DNA of 41,016 bases from Dehalococcoidia bacterium (GTDB lineage Bacteria > Chloroflexota > Dehalococcoidia > Dehalococcoidales > UBA3254), in assembly GCA_025361145.1 (NCBI GenBank), contig JANYAV010000013.1, positions 1 to 41,016 on the forward strand, read 5' to 3'. A program made the translations under genes and the position numbers. Below are positions 2,276 to 9,926 of this stretch, one piece after another. The notes below the pieces were generated by a model that was given only the letters and a program-made list of their open reading frames with translations, was not told where the DNA came from and searched no databases. The first letter of the stretch is position 1, and each line of letters begins with the position of its first letter.

Positions 2276-3307
2276 TTATCCCCATTTAGAGCGCATCTTC
2301 TCTGATACCGCGTTTAGCAGCTCCATGGCCAGTTCAAATCCGCCGTTGGAGAAACCCGCCAGACCGCAGGAAGGTGTCACCAGACTCTGTTTAACCAGCT
2401 GTTTGAATGGAAACTCTACCCCTTTTCTGGTCAAGGGTGCCATCGTCTCCTCCAATCGCTCCACCAGGCTGGCGACCGACTCTTGTTTTAAGATGGCTTC
2501 ATCATTGGGAATGATGCCCCAGGCGATGGTTTTACCATTGTTGAGGAAGTTTTGTACCTCTTTAGGATAAAGGGCTAGCGACGGCCCATAATTGTATGCG
2601 TCGAAATTCAGGATGTCCAGGCCGGTGCTCAGGACAATAGACCAGTCAGATTGTCCGCAGCAGTGAATGCCCTTGATCCCCTGGATGCCGCTGAAAACTT
2701 CTTGAATCAGGCTTACCACTTGCTCCTTACTGAGGGCAAAAAAGGCCGAGCCGATAGAGTGCAAATATGGTTCATCTATGAAAATGATCGTATTTTTATT
2801 TATTTGCTTGAGTTCATTCTCCATCCAGGCGGCTTTCAGTTTTAGGAGCTTGGCCGAGGCGTCTGCTAACGTCTCATCATAAGCAATGGCGCGGCCGTCC
2901 TGGTCTGTTACCGTCATGCCCCAGCTTACCGGTCCTGTCACATGCCCTTTGACGGCCATTACAGTTGATTTAGCGACTTTCATGAATTGATAAAGACCGG
3001 CTGCATAATCGGCTGATATGGGGAATTTGCTGATATCGTTTTCCAGGTAGGCTGCATAGAGTTTTTCCAGCTCAGGGAAAAGATCCTGATTGCGATCTAC
3101 GAAAATTTTCTCGCTGCTAATCTTGATCCCGGGGAAACCCTGACTGAACTGCGCGTACATATTCTCCGCGAAGGCGCGTTTAGGCAACTGCGGCCAGGCA
3201 GGTATGTCTTTTAAATAACGCAATATACTGTTGCAGGCCTCAACCGGGTCCTTAAAAGGCACACTGCCGATAATGGTGGGCAAACAATTAAATTCTAAGT
3301 TTGACAC
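2276..3307 (-). CDS. Core-MetE-type methionine synthase (MetE C-terminal / UROD superfamily)
   Basis: Probably transfers a methyl group to homocysteine. The protein has only the MetE catalytic barrel (about 343 aa against about 750 for full MetE), as in the short 'core-MetE' of Dehalococcoides, which takes its methyl group from a corrinoid instead of folate. Numbering from an upstream TTG, H218-C219-C220 and C317 (in P-S-C-G-L-A-G) fit the zinc-site His-x-Cys and distal Cys, and D181-E182-P resembles the family barrel motif. Where MetE has its zinc-ligand Glu, only Asp239 or Asn242 is nearby. The TTG at 3316 directly abuts AGAGGA, so the GTG at 3307, 9 nt after it, is the better start. The context of mtnA/mtnP and homocysteine genes supports a methionine role. 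A UROD-like methyltransferase for another thiol is the main alternative. Confidence 0.75.
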   Translation of the reverse strand: MSNLEFNCLPTIIGSVPFKDPVEACNSILRYLKDIPAWPQLPKRAFAENMYAQFSQGFPGIKISSEKIFVDRNQDLFPELEKLYAAYLENDISKFPISADYAAGLYQFMKVAKSTVMAVKGHVTGPVSWGMTVTDQDGRAIAYDETLADASAKLLKLKAAWMENELKQINKNTIIFIDEPYLHSIGSAFFALSKEQVVSLIQEVFSGIQGIKGIHCCGQSDWSIVLSTGLDILNFDAYNYGPSLALYPKEVQNFLNNGKTIAWGIIPNDEAILKQESVASLVERLEETMAPLTRKGVEFPFKQLVKQSLVTPSCGLAGFSNGGFELAMELLNAVSEKMRSKWG

Positions 3308-3378
3308 AGTTCCCAATCCTCTAAGTATTTCTGTGATTTATTTTACCTCGTCATTAAAAGATAAGCTAGTAAAACCTT

Positions 3379-4159: not shown

Positions 4160-4555
4160 ATGCTTGGTATCATAGTCAAAGCTCGCTCTACAATTCCCCT
4201 CTATCAGCAAATCGCGGCGGAGATTAAGCGTTGTATTGCCGCTTCCAAGGTCAAGCCGGGAGAGCGTATTCCTACCGTCAGGGAATTGGCTGATCACTTG
4301 CAAATTAATCCTGCTACTGTTGCTCGAGCTTACCAGGAATTAGAACGGGAGGGGATTGTAGCCGCCAGCCGTCGCCGTGGCACGATCGTATTGGGTGAGG
4401 CTGATTCGCCTCAAAGGCTGCCTATGCGGCAGGAACAATTGACAGCTATGATTAATAAATTAATTATGGAAGTTTTGAGTTTGGGTTATAGCCGAAAAGA
4501 ACTGACAGCCTCATTTAAATCAAACCTGTCTCGCTGGCATAAACCAAAGGGTTAA
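4160..4555 (+). CDS. GntR-family transcriptional regulator, YtrA-like
   Basis: A 131-aa DNA-binding protein. Residues about 10-78 form the GntR winged helix: P-L-Y-Q-Q-I near the start, then P-G-E-R-I-P-T-V-R-E-L-A, the recognition helix N-P-A-T-V-A-R-A-Y, and E-L-E-R-E-G-I-V with the wing ending in R-R-R-G-T-I-V. The C-terminal part is only about 50 aa and mainly helical, which is the short YtrA type that usually represses a neighbouring membrane or transport operon without a large ligand domain. Here the next three genes are not transporters, so its target is unclear. A 13-bp palindrome lies over the promoter of those genes, 19 bp after its stop, and is the obvious candidate operator. Confidence 0.88.
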   Translation: MLGIIVKARSTIPLYQQIAAEIKRCIAASKVKPGERIPTVRELADHLQINPATVARAYQELEREGIVAASRRRGTIVLGEADSPQRLPMRQEQLTAMINKLIMEVLSLGYSRKELTASFKSNLSRWHKPKG

Positions 4556-4573
4556 ATACTTGCCGCAGCCGCT

Positions 4574-4607
4574 GAAGGTGACCTTCCCCTTATTCATCCG
4601 CTATAAT
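4574..4607 (+). promoter_or_regulatory. Promoter and overlapping palindromic operator of the 4636-6623 operon
   Basis: TATAAT at 4602-4607 is a perfect -10 box. The region 17 nt upstream (4579-4584, TGACCT) is covered by a perfect palindrome, GAAGGT-G-ACCTTC, at 4574-4586. A protein bound there would block RNA polymerase at the -35 position. The GntR gene ends directly upstream, so autoregulation-type control of the downstream genes by GntR is an inference from position. Confidence 0.5.
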
Positions 4608-4635
4608 AGGAATATAAACATGAGAGGTGCCGACT

Positions 4636-5229
4636 ATGGGAGATATTAAGAGTGCCCGCGAAATCGCGATGGAGAAAATAGCTGCGTTGGGAGAGCCGAC
4701 CGAGGCCGAACGTTTGGAATGGAAATACCTGCCTGAGGGTGAAAAACTGGCAGCTCGTTATTTAAAAGGCGATGTTAAATTATCTGAAGAGATCGCTAAA
4801 TTTGATAAGAAAGCGGCCCCCATTATTACCAGAGCGGTTTCTGTGGTTTTGATCAAGAATATTAGTTTGCCCAAAGATGAAATGACAAAAAAGACCAATA
4901 AGATTGCCATGGAAGGATTGAAATCGATCAAGATGGAGAAGGCCAAAGTAGAGGCGGTTCTTAATCAAATCAATCAGATTTTTACTCATTTTGCTACCCA
5001 GGGCGAGCAGCAGATGAAACAGGCCTACGAAGTAGTCAAGCAAGATTTTCAGGCTAAAGTTGAACAGGCTTTGAGACAGCAGATGGGCAGCAACGCGGCC
5101 AATATGCGGATCGATATCGAAAAACAGCCGCAATTTCAGGAAGAATGGCGTAAAGTAAAAAGCCAGTTAGATGGCCAGTATATTACGGTCTTAACTGAGC
5201 TCAAACAACAGCTTACCCTTCTTAATTAA
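4636..5229 (+). CDS. Unknown conserved-looking helical protein
   Basis: I do not recognise this 197-aa protein. It is highly charged, soluble and almost entirely helical. The N-terminal half starts with E-I-A-M-E-K-I and contains a Y-L-P-E-G-E-K-L-A-A-R-Y segment; the stretch 95-165 is rich in Gln, Glu, Lys and Ala with coiled-coil character. No signal peptide, membrane span or catalytic motif is seen. A GTG lies at 4627, but GAGAGG at 4622-4627 is placed 8 nt before the ATG at 4636, so the ATG is preferred. It is first in an operon with another unknown gene (20 nt later) and a thymidylate-synthase-like gene, under a promoter overlapped by a palindrome. Confidence 0.75.
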   Translation: MGDIKSAREIAMEKIAALGEPTEAERLEWKYLPEGEKLAARYLKGDVKLSEEIAKFDKKAAPIITRAVSVVLIKNISLPKDEMTKKTNKIAMEGLKSIKMEKAKVEAVLNQINQIFTHFATQGEQQMKQAYEVVKQDFQAKVEQALRQQMGSNAANMRIDIEKQPQFQEEWRKVKSQLDGQYITVLTELKQQLTLLN

Positions 5230-5249
5230 ACAGGGGTTAATACTAAACC

Positions 5250-5948
5250 ATGGAATCCGACGAAAGAATCCGAAACGCGGTGATGAATACCGAGATAGTC
5301 AGGCCTCCCAGGCAGAGTTTGGCCACTTTTGGCACGACTAGTGTCTACTATTATCTGGTGGCGGAAGCAACCTATAACGAATTGATTAAAAAACAGGAAA
5401 CTGTTATCCGCGAAGGTCGCGTCATCGCTGAAAGGCCTAAGATAGTCACTCCTTCTTATTTGTCCCGGGTACAGGGTTTTAGCCCCGAGGCTAAGAAATA
5501 CTTCGACATGTTGATGACCCAGGGCCATCCGGATTCTCCCGGCCTGGTCTACGCCTACCGCAACGAACCGAAAGAATTGAACATAGTTTCCGACAACCTG
5601 ACCACAGTGGTTGCCAGGCTGAATGAGCAAATAGACCAGAAGGGCGATCCTTTAATCTCAATTATTAAAGGGGAAGATTACCTCTGGGACGTTTCAATTT
5701 TGAAATTTATTTACGAGATCACCAGCCGCTCGGTAGGGGATAACGTTCGACAGCTTAATCAGCGCGGGCTGCTTAACGTTGATTCCAGAGGTGTTACTTC
5801 CGATGCCAGAATTCGCATAGAGAGCCTATTTGATCTGGTGGAAAAGGGCGAGATGGAGCCTGCTGATCTCAAGGTTGAACTGGACCGCTGGGGTGTTTTT
5901 GAAGACTATCAGGACCGTTTCTTTTCAATTTTTCATAAGAAACATTAA
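5250..5948 (+). CDS. Unknown soluble protein, second gene of the thyA-like operon
   Basis: A 232-aa protein of unknown function with no signal peptide or membrane span. The N-terminal 40 residues carry F-G-T-T-S-V-Y-Y-Y-L-V-A-E, followed by I-V-T-P-S-Y-L near 67-73 and F-S-P-E-A-K-K-Y-F near 78-86. The C-terminal 90 residues look like a helical domain (S-I-L-K-F-I-Y-E-I-T, then a Leu/Glu-rich tail). The spacing, 20 nt after the upstream gene and 30 nt before the next, indicates one transcript. AGGGG sits about 13 nt before the ATG, a rather long gap. A small GC hairpin (CCGGC-ACT-GCCGG, 5950-5962) separates it from the next gene and may tune its expression. Confidence 0.75.
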   Translation: MESDERIRNAVMNTEIVRPPRQSLATFGTTSVYYYLVAEATYNELIKKQETVIREGRVIAERPKIVTPSYLSRVQGFSPEAKKYFDMLMTQGHPDSPGLVYAYRNEPKELNIVSDNLTTVVARLNEQIDQKGDPLISIIKGEDYLWDVSILKFIYEITSRSVGDNVRQLNQRGLLNVDSRGVTSDARIRIESLFDLVEKGEMEPADLKVELDRWGVFEDYQDRFFSIFHKKH

Positions 5949-5978
5949 ACCGGCACTGCCGGCATAAGGGGGCAATAC

Positions 5979-6623
5979 TTGGATATCACTGTCGTAGAAG
6001 CCCGTGATCTTTCCGAAGCCTGGTTTTTGTGTGTCGGTAAGGCCATGAACGAAGGCTATACCTATAAAATAGAGCGAGGTAGCTTTGCCGGACAGCATCG
6101 CAAGGAATTGGGACTGATCGTAGTCCGTATTAAAAATCCAGGCTCTCGTCCCCTGGTGCCGGATGTTCCTCAGGGAGTTCCGCCGCCCTCTACTATGGAA
6201 TATGTTGAATCCTATCTGCCTTATTTGATGACTTCTCATCGAGTCGAGGGCGAGCAGTATACCTACGGCCAATATCTGGAGAAACAAATTCCCGAAGTCA
6301 TCAAAATGTATAAGGAGCAGGGTCCCAATACTAATCAGGCTTATATGACCGTGGGAGACGAGAAATCGATCTTTTTAGAGGATCCGCCCTGTTTAAGGGG
6401 TATTGATACCCGGATACGGGACAATAAATTGAATTTTATCGTCTATTTTCGCTCCTGGGACCTTTGGGCAGGTTTTCCCTCCAATCTGGCCGCCATTCAA
6501 TTATTAAAAGAATATATGGCCAGTGAGATAGGTGTGGAAGACGGTGAATTGGTGGGCATGAGCAAAGGCCTTCATATTTACGAATATGCCTGGGATCTGG
6601 CTAGAACTACTCTAAGGATGTAG
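5979..6623 (+). CDS. Thymidylate-synthase-like protein (short, archaeal-type ThyA fold)
   Basis: Likely methylates (or hydroxymethylates) a pyrimidine deoxynucleotide with a folate cofactor. At 214 aa it is shorter than E. coli ThyA (264) and closer to archaeal forms. Core residues are present: nucleophile Cys138 in D-P-P-C-L-R, R158-S159-x-D161, N169 in G-F-P-S-N-L, and the dUMP-ribose pair H199-x-Y201 in L-H-I-Y-E-Y. The TTG start is supported by AAGGGGG 6 nt upstream. The last gene of a three-gene operon, it overlaps the end of the convergent dnaJ-like gene by 17 bp. The dUMP-specific Asn aligns as N169, so dTMP synthesis is favoured over dCMP hydroxymethylation, but this rests on motifs alone. 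Confidence 0.8.
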
Positions 6624-7523: not shown

Positions 7524-8255
7524 TTAGCTAATCTCTGTCCGCCGTAGCTTGATGTCACCCCAGGCACCCATCTCCTCCCCTTTGATAATAACGATACCCC
7601 GGACACCGCTGATTACTTGGGCTTTGGTGATTCCGCTGGGGATATCTGCGGCAGTTATGATCAGATTGCCGATGTAGGTTGCTACCGCGTCTGACAGAAC
7701 GGCAGACTCGGCCAGTATCACCACTGCGTCCGCCTTACCAAAGCTTAAAGAATGTCCCACTGTCCCTGATGAAGTGCTGATCCCCAGGGGTGTGTCTTTG
7801 GCTTGAATTTCTATGCCTAACTTGCCGCTCAGGGGAGATTGTCCTGCATAGATACCGATTAGCCGATTTTTTGTGCTGCGCAGATAGATATCACCGCCGT
7901 TCTCAATAATCACATCTTGAGAAAATTCCGCCAGATCTTCACCGACAAAATAGGCGATCGCTCCCGCTACGGCAGCCATAGGGCCGACGGAGGCTTGTTC
8001 GCCGGCTTTGCACATAGCTTTGACAATCAGGGGAGCATCTTCCGGGCATGCCAGGGGTTCTAGTGTAGTCAGGAAAAGCGGATTAGCAGTTATGTATTTC
8101 TTGAGATGAGAACGGTATTTTTGAATAAGACGTTGGGCTTTTCCGGTCAAATTGGAAGCGGCGCTGATATAGCAGTCTGTTTCTTCGACAATGACGTTGA
8201 AGTTGACCAGGTCTTTATGTTTTACCCAATCCCTGTAGGCCCTGGGTTGATACAT
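7524..8255 (-). CDS. UPF0280 / COG2122 (ApbE-like fold) protein linked to homocysteine synthesis
   Basis: A 243-aa member of the UPF0280 family, related in fold to ApbE FAD:protein FMN transferases. Seen: Q-A-S-V-G-P-M-A-A-V-A-G-A-I-A near the middle, then I-I-E-N-G-G-D-I-Y, then G-I-S-T-S-S-G-T-V-G-H-S and D-A-V-A-T. Its methanogen counterpart (COG2122) helps homocysteine formation when sulfide is scarce, together with COG1900 and NIL-ferredoxin proteins; all three are present here in order. The frame stays open upstream, but the ATG at 8255 shares its A with the stop of the ferredoxin gene (TAATG), so it is the coupled start. Earlier starts would overlap the ferredoxin gene by about 60 bp. 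Confidence 0.85.
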   Translation of the reverse strand: MYQPRAYRDWVKHKDLVNFNVIVEETDCYISAASNLTGKAQRLIQKYRSHLKKYITANPLFLTTLEPLACPEDAPLIVKAMCKAGEQASVGPMAAVAGAIAYFVGEDLAEFSQDVIIENGGDIYLRSTKNRLIGIYAGQSPLSGKLGIEIQAKDTPLGISTSSGTVGHSLSFGKADAVVILAESAVLSDAVATYIGNLIITAADIPSGITKAQVISGVRGIVIIKGEEMGAWGDIKLRRTEIS

Positions 8256-8692
8256 TAAAAATGCAATTCCATAGCCCTGGGAGGACAGGCCTTGATGCAC
8301 AGCCCGCAGGCTACGCACTTTTTACTGTTAAAGCGCACTACCATGGTGCCGGGTTCGCTGGAGAAGGCCCCGGCGGGACAGACCGTAACGCAGGCCCCGC
8401 AGGAAGTGCAGCGGTCTTCATTACGGGTGACGTCCTGGCTCAAAGCCTGGATTTTGACTCCGCAGTTGAGCAGATATTGAACCCCCAGGTCGTAGCTGGC
8501 TTGCTCGCCCTTCAGCTCAACCACCATCAGGCCTTCGGCTTCAGGCGTGATCGAAGCCTTGAGGATGTTAAATTCCAGGTCATAATCTTTAATCAGTCTG
8601 AAAAGGATAGGTTCATCCACCCTTCTCTTGGGGAAATGCAGGACCACCTTCTTTGTTACCATTTTTTTTGTGGATTTTTCTTTTTCAGACAT
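8255..8692 (-). CDS. NIL-domain di-[4Fe-4S] ferredoxin, iron-sulfur partner of COG1900
   Basis: A 145-aa two-domain protein. Residues about 15-85 form a NIL (ACT-like) domain; the C-terminal half is a 2[4Fe-4S] ferredoxin with C95-C98-C101-C105 and C126-C129-C132-C136. In methanogens the same protein is the iron-sulfur subunit of L-aspartate semialdehyde sulfurtransferase and supplies electrons or sulfur handling for homocysteine synthesis. It sits 16 nt after the COG1900 gene and overlaps the next gene by one base. AAAGGAAA lies about 10 nt before the ATG. NIL domains also occur in methionine ABC transporters (MetN) as Met sensors, so Met feedback through this domain is possible but only inferred. 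Confidence 0.9.
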   Translation of the reverse strand: MSEKEKSTKKMVTKKVVLHFPKRRVDEPILFRLIKDYDLEFNILKASITPEAEGLMVVELKGEQASYDLGVQYLLNCGVKIQALSQDVTRNEDRCTSCGACVTVCPAGAFSSEPGTMVVRFNSKKCVACGLCIKACPPRAMELHF

Positions 8693-8708
8693 GGGTTATT
8701 AATTTCCT

Positions 8709-9926
8709 TTAATATTCCCCCGCCGGGCGTTCATTTAGCGGTTTGAAAGTCACCCCTGATTCCGGTCCGGGCAGCGCGGCAACAGGTTCAGAAAGCAGGA
8801 ATTCTCCTTTTCCAATCCAGTCTTTTAAGGTATTAGCGATCTCTAATGCTCGCGGATAGCTAGAAAGTGCGGCTGTAGGTATACTCTTCCCCTGGACTTT
8901 GATCTTGCCGGAACGCAGTTCAGCATAGCTTACCTCACCTAAAATATCCGGCTCGCGGTTGGGATAAGAACTGGAGTAATCTATCACCGGCGCGAAAATT
9001 TCAGCGTCTGTTATCGCGGTATACCGCAGGATGTCCTCATTCAAGATAGGAATAGGCACACCGATACCCACCGCCAGGCTGACTCCGTAACCCTGCATGC
9101 TGGTACCCACTAGATAGCGTGGGCTCATTTGTTTAAGATCCCCTATCACACAGAGCGTGGCAGCGCCGCCGCGGGGGGTACCATTCTCAGAGCGCGGAAC
9201 GCCCGGATTGAATTGAGTCCCGGGCCAGGCTACGTAACCCACGCCGCCTCCCAGGAAGATGCGGGTTCCCACGCCGATTGTTTTATAGCAGGGGTCCTTC
9301 ATCAGCGGGGAAAGCTGTCCGGCGCTTGAATAGCCCGCGCTGCCCAGCCTTGGTTTAAGGACCCCCATATAGGTGTATATTGTCTTATCTGAGGTATTAA
9401 CTGCCACATTATAGTTCTGGTAGGCGTTGCGCATGTTGAAAAGCACAGCCTCATTCAGATCTTTGATGTTGATCCAGGTTTCCAGTTTCTTGCGCGGATA
9501 GCAATCCGTACCATAGGCCGAAGCGATCAGGCGTACATCGTGTCCGGCCACCAGTTCTTCAATGACATGGCCACCGCCGTAATTAAAATCGCCGGGGTGG
9601 TTGTGGTTGCGGGGGTCGTCGTCAGGTAAAGCATTAGCTCCGATAAAAAGGTCGACAGCTGCGAAGGCCGCGTAAGCGGGGACATCATTCAGATAACTTC
9701 TACCGCCGCCCAACTTCATGCGCGGTTTAGTGTGACCGATGTTAAAATAGGCTCCGGAAGAACACATCGGGCCGAAAGTGCCGGTAGTCACCACGTCTAC
9801 CATCTCCGCGGCTTTCTTGATGCCTTCCTGTTTGGCGATCTCGATGATTTCCGCGGCAGTGACTACTACAGCCTTGCCCTGCTTAATCTTTTGATTGATT
9901 TCGCTAATTGTTTTTGTCATATTCAT
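8709..9926 (-). CDS. L-aspartate semialdehyde sulfurtransferase-type protein (COG1900 / DUF39)
   Basis: A 405-aa DUF39 protein. Methanogen homologues make homocysteine directly from aspartate semialdehyde and sulfide through a protein-bound persulfide, bypassing homoserine activation. Conserved-looking cysteines are C55 (G-P-M-C-S-S-G) and C142 (Y-G-T-D-C-Y-P-R); Gly-rich runs K-L-G-G-G-R and F-L-G-G-G-V-G-Y are typical of the family. There is no C-terminal CBS pair, unlike some archaeal versions; the ferredoxin is a separate gene immediately downstream. The start could be the ATG at 9926, 4 nt after a TATTAT box (leaderless), or the second ATG at 9920, which has AGGA upstream. It heads the operon COG1900 / NIL-Fd / UPF0280. 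Confidence 0.88.
   Translation of the reverse strand: MNMTKTISEINQKIKQGKAVVVTAAEIIEIAKQEGIKKAAEMVDVVTTGTFGPMCSSGAYFNIGHTKPRMKLGGGRSYLNDVPAYAAFAAVDLFIGANALPDDDPRNHNHPGDFNYGGGHVIEELVAGHDVRLIASAYGTDCYPRKKLETWINIKDLNEAVLFNMRNAYQNYNVAVNTSDKTIYTYMGVLKPRLGSAGYSSAGQLSPLMKDPCYKTIGVGTRIFLGGGVGYVAWPGTQFNPGVPRSENGTPRGGAATLCVIGDLKQMSPRYLVGTSMQGYGVSLAVGIGVPIPILNEDILRYTAITDAEIFAPVIDYSSSYPNREPDILGEVSYAELRSGKIKVQGKSIPTAALSSYPRALEIANTLKDWIGKGEFLLSEPVAALPGPESGVTFKPLNERPAGEY

Follow-up and report, generated by a model that had tools for sequence, protein, structure and literature searches.

Gene layout at the locus

The stretch of DNA analysed here (41,016 nucleotides; hereafter the window) makes up contig 13 of a Dehalococcoidia genome that comprises 1.70 Mb in 25 contigs and is 96% complete. 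It carries a gene for a GntR-family regulator, followed by two genes for proteins that we call U1 and U2, and by a gene for a short protein resembling the thymidylate synthase ThyA, hereafter the short ThyA. The function of this last gene, and its relation to the three genes before it, are the subject of this report. The features are as follows:

4160..4555, forward strand: GntR-family regulator, 131 residues (PF00392 at residues 14-77, 62 bits, E 4.2e-17)
4578..4607, forward strand: promoter-like site GTGACC-18-TATAAT between the GntR gene and U1, which are 80 bp apart (10 of 12 consensus bases)
4636..5229, forward strand: U1, 197 residues, predicted all-helical (63-row alignment)
5250..5948, forward strand: U2, 232 residues, predicted mixed alpha/beta with a helical C-terminal tail (68-row alignment, 33 invariant columns)
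5979..6623, forward strand: short ThyA-like protein, 214 residues, TTG start (PF00303 over its cut-off)

A check of the open reading frames (ORFs) agreed with the coordinates that an earlier note on this DNA had given for the four genes. U1, U2 and the short ThyA lie on one strand, separated by gaps of 20 bp and 30 bp, and since dozens of relatives keep the same frames open and similar in sequence, they represent more than chance. The first of them could start at GTG 4627 or at ATG 4636, of which the latter, after AGAGGTG, is the better placed. Downstream, a convergent DnaJ-type gene overlaps the end of the ThyA gene by 17 bp. The promoter-like site should be read as weak evidence, because the region as a whole holds nine such sites, where shuffled sequences give 4.5 +/- 1.9.

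The third gene encodes a short ThyA-like protein

The PF00303 profile matches the product of the third gene at 43.9 bits (gathering cut-off 24.3; E 2.1e-11), over residues 103-212 only, and the C-terminal half of the protein aligns to solved thymidylate synthase structures (best E 1.4e-10). Among curated families the best score is that of TIGR03283 (thy_syn_methano), the thymidylate synthase of methanogens, to which the protein is alike both in length and in aligning from end to end (residues 5-206 on positions 2-199 of 201), and which is also matched by all 47 Dehalococcoidia members (best E 9.4e-30) and by all 51 viral members scanned (best E 2.7e-32). Unlike that family, the clade is found in folate-making bacteria and on viral contigs, and the window protein, at 103.4 bits, stays below the curated cut-off of 174.55. 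The score against TIGR03284, the family of the classical ThyA, is 35.8 bits for a cut-off of 108.35.

The residues that the earlier note had singled out, C138, R158-S-W-D161, N169 and H199-x-Y201, are all present and are invariant in the 47-row alignment, and their counterparts in E. coli ThyA are C146, R166-S-C-D169, N177 and H207-x-Y209. In all, the short ThyA keeps Tyr94, Cys146, Arg166, Ser167, Asp169, Gly173, Asn177, His207 and Tyr209 of the E. coli enzyme; its Cys, R-S-x-D, Asn, H-x-Y and Y-G motifs follow one another as in the classical enzymes of E. coli and L. casei. When Dehalococcoidia and viral sequences are taken together (47 + 30 + 76), Cys138, D161, N169, H199 and Y201 are kept throughout, with a gap at Y201 as the sole exception. 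Glu92, Cys138 and Leu139 are identical in 153/153 rows of this clade set, in which some rows of the sets of 47 and 30 are the same sequence; Arg140 is found in all rows but one and Asn at position 119 in 152. The viral sequences were chosen by the motifs EQYTYGQ and FRSWDLW, so that the conservation of these two motifs among viruses is biased.

Alternation with ThyX across the class

The protein is the single PF00303 match in its genome, and neither ThyX (PF02511) nor thymidine kinase gave a match there. A search for another thyA or thyX, as the earlier note had proposed, thus leaves this gene as the only one of either kind found. Among 157 class genomes sampled, the short ThyA occurs in 34 and ThyX in 119: 11 genomes have both, 23 only the short ThyA (18 with a completeness of 90% or more), 108 only ThyX, and 15 neither. 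This mutual avoidance is pronounced (Fisher p 5e-10, a value that ignores relatedness and includes some incomplete genomes). ThyX is unrelated to ThyA in fold and chemistry, and the two have an equal metabolic role. The short ThyA is also present in single-contig genomes of the same order, of 1.4-1.9 Mb. In a wider sample of 251 genomes of the phylum, 21 genomes matched; the full-length matches, in 15 of them, were confined to the class, and those in the remaining six were partial and weak.

Of the genomic evidence that deoxythymidine monophosphate is made by the short ThyA, its alternation with ThyX is the strongest. Taken together with the single PF00303 match and with the lack of ThyX and thymidine kinase matches in the same genome, it suggests that the short ThyA is most likely the cell's thymidylate synthase. 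The identification of the third product as a thymidylate synthase in the earlier note is thus supported by both homology and distribution. Thymidine kinase profiles did match in 16 of the 157 genomes (13 over the family cut-off; best E 6.6e-5; frames of 358-796 residues), and these we took for chance P-loop matches. The same-order genomes that hold both ThyX and the short ThyA are G013, G049, G068, G083, G098, G124, G135 and G146.

Conservation of U1, U2 and ThyA

For a comparison of loci we used the best 80 of 278 relatives in the genome collection, whose records carry the names Dehalococcoidia, Dehalococcoidales, Dehalococcoides, Chloroflexi or Chloroflexota, apart from two Deltaproteobacteria. 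In 58 of these, the sequence before thyA extends over 3 kb or more; the other 22 fell short of this and were left out, the nearest relative (L002, 94%) among them. U2 lies upstream of thyA in 57 of the 58, and 55 have U1, U2 and ThyA in one order and on one strand, with spacings of 12-417 bp and 6-1173 bp. A GntR homologue was found upstream of thyA in none of them. The GntR gene is therefore a local neighbour outside the conserved unit, perhaps common to very close kin, given that L002 is too short to tell. A search for a GntR operator yielded a single AT-rich inverted repeat, which lies within the GntR gene itself, and the YtrA subfamily fits by the short length (131 residues) only. The role of controller that the earlier note gave to the regulator is not supported, and its 'one controlled unit', as far as it takes in GntR, is a reading of the sequence rather than something seen in it.

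Within the order, the constant association of the two proteins with the short ThyA holds up well, as U1, U2 and ThyA stand side by side in 10/10 genomes that bear ThyA; in an eleventh (G156), U1 and U2 are side by side and ThyX is present, with no ThyA match. Outside the order it breaks down, since U2 and ThyA share a contig in 0 of the 19 genomes that have both, in assemblies that are mostly fragmented. Seven genomes there (G002, G005, G017, G026, G027, G058 and G090) have U1 and U2 less than 60 bp apart on one strand, and all of these except G017 have ThyX and lack the short ThyA. Over the 157 genomes, U2 is found in 29/34 with ThyA and 28/123 without it, and U1 in 28/34 and 35/123, where the U1 counts include weak paralogues. 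The strongest of the pairwise associations is that of U1 with U2 (Fisher p 4e-18), followed by U2 with ThyA (4e-11) and U1 with ThyA (2e-8).

One could argue from these numbers that U1, U2 and ThyA act together, as a complex, in a chaperone-like assembly or through a linked nucleotide step, with GntR as the controller. The shared order and strand and the co-occurrence of both proteins with ThyA speak in its favour. Shared ancestry would also explain the co-occurrence, however, and the separate contigs outside the order, the five of 34 ThyA genomes without a U2 match, the U1-U2 pairs of ThyX-only genomes, the genes inserted in some loci and the missing GntR all run counter to it, so that we regard such joint action as unlikely. 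The same holds for a dedicated U1-U2-ThyA partnership, because the pair occurs elsewhere without the short ThyA. The earlier note had named a wide occurrence of the two genes without the ThyA-like gene as what would speak against its proposal, and this is largely what the 28 U2-bearing genomes without ThyA and the tight U1-U2 pairs of six ThyX-only genomes outside the order amount to. Since the tight pairs outside the order mostly lack the short ThyA, the U1-U2 pair looks older than its link to thyA.

Among seven loci that we read in detail, L003, L006, L012 and L019 have a small protein of 114-132 residues inserted between U1 and U2, and in L008, L028 and L034 a radical SAM protein separates U2 from ThyA. 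Examples are:

L012, 4891-5235: 114-residue insert between U1 and U2, no NCBIfam match
L034, 5065-5943: radical SAM insert between U2 and ThyA

In the same-order genome G013, archease-like and RtcB-like genes, named by eye, lie divergently upstream of U1-U2-ThyA (L157, 8416-10302).

U1 and U2

The earlier note could not assign either protein, and for the window proteins themselves this stands, as neither matches Pfam or NCBIfam at E <= 0.01. The profile searches that it proposed gave a weak lead for U1 and no family for U2. Of 63 U1 relatives, 22 match PF20362 (DUF6657; best E 2.4e-5), and judged from these matches U1 may be weakly related to that family. Its AlphaFold2 model (predicted local distance difference test, pLDDT, 92.7) consists of helices only; the best Foldseek hit has an E of 0.76, and a VIA Z of 7.5 to BAR-like helices is in the common range for helical models. 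For U2, PHROGs likewise gave nothing at E <= 0.01, DUF6137 of Pfam stands at 0.013, no PDB match was found at E <= 0.001, and two isolated weak DUF matches were obtained among 68 relatives. The U2 model has a pLDDT of 82, with a best Foldseek hit in the PDB at E 9.7e-3 (TM-score 0.21) and a best VIA Z of 4.4. That neither protein resembles a listed fold is no evidence of new folds.

The last ~55 residues of U2 recur at the C-terminus of Dehalococcoidia PAC2-like 'proteasome assembly chaperone' proteins (L152-L155). The shared tail is helical and reads LKxELDRWxLFxEYEDRFL; the PAC2-like protein of L152 matches TIGR00162 and TIGR00161, both below their cut-offs. Because the end of U2 recurs in these proteins, one may reasonably suppose that it is a binding tail common to both.

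Viral relatives

Relatives of the short ThyA are encoded in 141 stretches of uncultured viral contigs, the best 80 of which (L163-L242) are 41-65% identical to the Dehalococcoidia enzyme. In a tree with 76 viral sequences (four of the 80 loci gave no sequence, and some Dehalococcoidia rows are duplicates), the Dehalococcoidia are nested among the viruses, which hold most of the diversity, and the group that they form with 23 viral sequences has a support of 0.997. The outgroup branch is long (2.4 substitutions), several nodes are weak and archaeal sequences are not included, and for these reasons we claim no direction of transfer. The viral relatives nevertheless raise the possibility that a central enzyme of thymine synthesis has moved between viruses and cells.

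Among 150 scanned proteins encoded immediately next to the viral thyA, nine are Cpn10-like and five are ribosomal S21-like. A dihydrofolate reductase (DHFR) was detected beside none of the 80 viral genes by tblastn with E. coli FolA and a partial Lw1 Frd, a weak test with flanks of at most 3 kb, nor was it among the 25 families listed of 70 Pfam families in the viral neighbours (150 of 221 dereplicated proteins; 259 before dereplication). Among named phages and plasmids no match reaches 60% identity, those listed being 22-42% identical; the matching phage records number 369 at E 1e-3 and 838 at E 1e-2, and the plasmid records 51.

The folate route and the missing dihydrofolate reductase

ThyA and FolA are presented as one coupled unit in PMC9931769. 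In the present class, FolP was found in 138/157 genomes, that of the window included, and FolA-type DHFR (PF00186) in none. The PF00186 search matched in nine of 14 control genomes; the two methanogens among the 14 have PF00303 and gave no PF00186 match. Methanogens use a different carrier. The figures for FolA and FolP amount to a class-wide missing DHFR.

In the genome of the window, RibD_C gave a single match, in a 367-residue frame of the size of RibD, and a RibD_C-type DHFR was rejected for this genome. Ten other same-order genomes have one match each, in frames of 367-387 residues, and among the matches listed for the 23 ThyA-only genomes there are none in G035, G047 and G063 and at least two in G039. 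The folP frame, of 292 residues, shows no sign of an H. pylori-type fusion of FolP with a flavin protein. In six folP regions, with ORFs named by eye, we recognised no FolA-like ORF, and saw FolP next to a PTPS-like ORF in five of them and next to a FolK-like ORF of its own in four; neither was seen in the folP stretch of the window's own genome. FMN-binding-like and ApbE-like ORFs, also named by eye, lie a few kb from folP in L262, and FMN-binding-like ones in L263. U1 and U2 were rejected as the missing DHFR, the former being all-helical and the latter without a match; they occur in 63/157 and 57/157 genomes respectively, where FolP, and hence the need for reduction, is found in 138.

As the FolP route would end at dihydrofolate, the class would need a reductase other than FolA in any case, and in its FolP-bearing members dihydrofolate is presumably made, and then reduced by such an enzyme. 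According to PMC1971073, many bacteria have no recognisable DHFR, most of them ThyX users, the responsible gene being unknown at the time. What the present genomes add is a folate-making group with ThyA in which neither ThyX nor FolA was found. Considering that FolP is found in most genomes, FolA in none and that 23 have ThyA without ThyX, the class must possess a dihydrofolate reductase of an unknown kind or else a ThyA that is unusual. This, rather than a unit of GntR and two unassigned genes, is where we see the interest of the locus. Our literature searches returned no paper joining Dehalococcoides with thymidylate synthase and dihydrofolate reductase, none joining Dehalococcoidia with thymidylate synthase and none on DUF6657; searches on Dehalococcoides with thymidylate or dihydrofolate, and on MJ0757 or M. 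jannaschii, gave nothing relevant among the papers listed, as far as titles and the opening lines of abstracts tell.

The second of these options would be a clade of ThyA, in Dehalococcoidia and uncultured viruses, that leaves folate unoxidised and methylates deoxyuridine monophosphate (dUMP) without free dihydrofolate, taking the hydride from another donor and thus working independently of any DHFR. If true, a ThyA-dependent, folate-making cell would live without dihydrofolate reductase. The 23 of 157 genomes with ThyA and no ThyX or FolA match would fit, as would the failure to see a stand-alone RibD_C or a FolP fusion in the window's genome and the conserved differences close to the active site. 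The homologous fold and the kept Asp161 and Tyr96 suggest ordinary chemistry, however; FolP-dependent synthesis needs dihydrofolate reduction regardless, and the non-homologous DHFRs (FolM-type short-chain dehydrogenases/reductases and DmrX-type flavoproteins) were not searched for. ThyA without DHFR is also not exclusive to this class, as the table in PMC1971073 lists the folate salvager Bartonella henselae with ThyA and without DHFR, ThyX, FolK or FolP. On balance we consider DHFR independence improbable.

Proposed function and mechanism

The explanation that we favour, and hold to be likely on the sequence evidence, is that the third gene would encode the cell's thymidylate synthase, a short and divergent ThyA that replaces ThyX in part of the Dehalococcoidia, with U1-U2 as an older unit and GntR as a neighbour. 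By homology with the E. coli enzyme, Cys138 would add to C6 of dUMP, Arg158 and Ser159 would hold the phosphate, Asn169 would read the uracil, and Asp161, Tyr96 and His199/Tyr201 would complete the active site. Methylene-tetrahydrofolate would supply both the carbon and the hydride, and the dihydrofolate produced would have to be reduced again by an enzyme unlike FolA. U1-U2 would be an older two-gene unit, probably with a structural or assembly-type role, that was later linked to thyA in one order. The role of the enzyme is thus ordinary, the short enzyme itself and its folate setting are unusual, and U1 and U2 are not specific to ThyA.

Several observations weigh against assigning this function to the short ThyA. 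The protein scores under the curated cut-off of every matching thymidylate synthase equivalog model. It is ~50 residues shorter than the classical ThyA, missing the Glu58-Trp80-Trp83 segment and the C-terminal tail (the last ~50 residues) of the E. coli enzyme; His147 is replaced by Leu139, and Arg126/Arg127, which bind phosphate across the dimer, by Asn119/Gln120. The phosphate must therefore be held differently; candidate residues for this role are Arg140 and Arg145, which hardly vary within the clade. FolA, the partner of the classical enzyme, was not found in the genome, nor was an alternative reductase, in searches that did not extend to the FolM and DmrX types. The 11 genomes with both enzymes, which include 8/10 same-order ones, would fit a second role too; PF00303 was not searched over the class, where other members may thus have a classical ThyA, and in a genome that is ~96% complete a missing gene might sit in the gaps.

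Alternatively, the short ThyA could be a dUMP hydroxymethylase, with which folate stays tetrahydro and no DHFR is needed, in line with the lack of FolA in the class sample, the loss of H147 and the E58 segment, the many viral relatives and the ThyX kept alongside in 11/34 genomes, but this we consider very improbable, as the 23/34 genomes without a ThyX match (and that of the window, without a thymidine kinase match) would be left with no source of thymine, residue 169 is an Asn, as expected for uracil, where the deoxycytidine monophosphate (dCMP) hydroxymethylase of phage p000v has Asp, and 98/98 scanned members (47 + 51) match TIGR03283. The T4-type dCMP hydroxymethylase is a distant homologue whose motifs align with those of the short ThyA, and its signature, an Asp in place of Asn177, is not seen in the window protein, where the residue is Asn169.

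Other genes of the window

At 7524-9926 on the reverse strand, a HcyBio protein (PF01837), an NIL plus 4Fe-4S protein and a PRK04334-type protein, which we take to be UPF0280-like, are encoded consecutively, and what by eye is apparently the same trio adjoins folP in L264 (6820-9197). A protein encoded at 2276-3316 on the reverse strand, with no Pfam match at E <= 1, carries HCCGxxD and PSCGLAG motifs and by eye resembles MesB, which PMC7857596 describes as the folate-independent methionine synthase of Dehalococcoides mccartyi.

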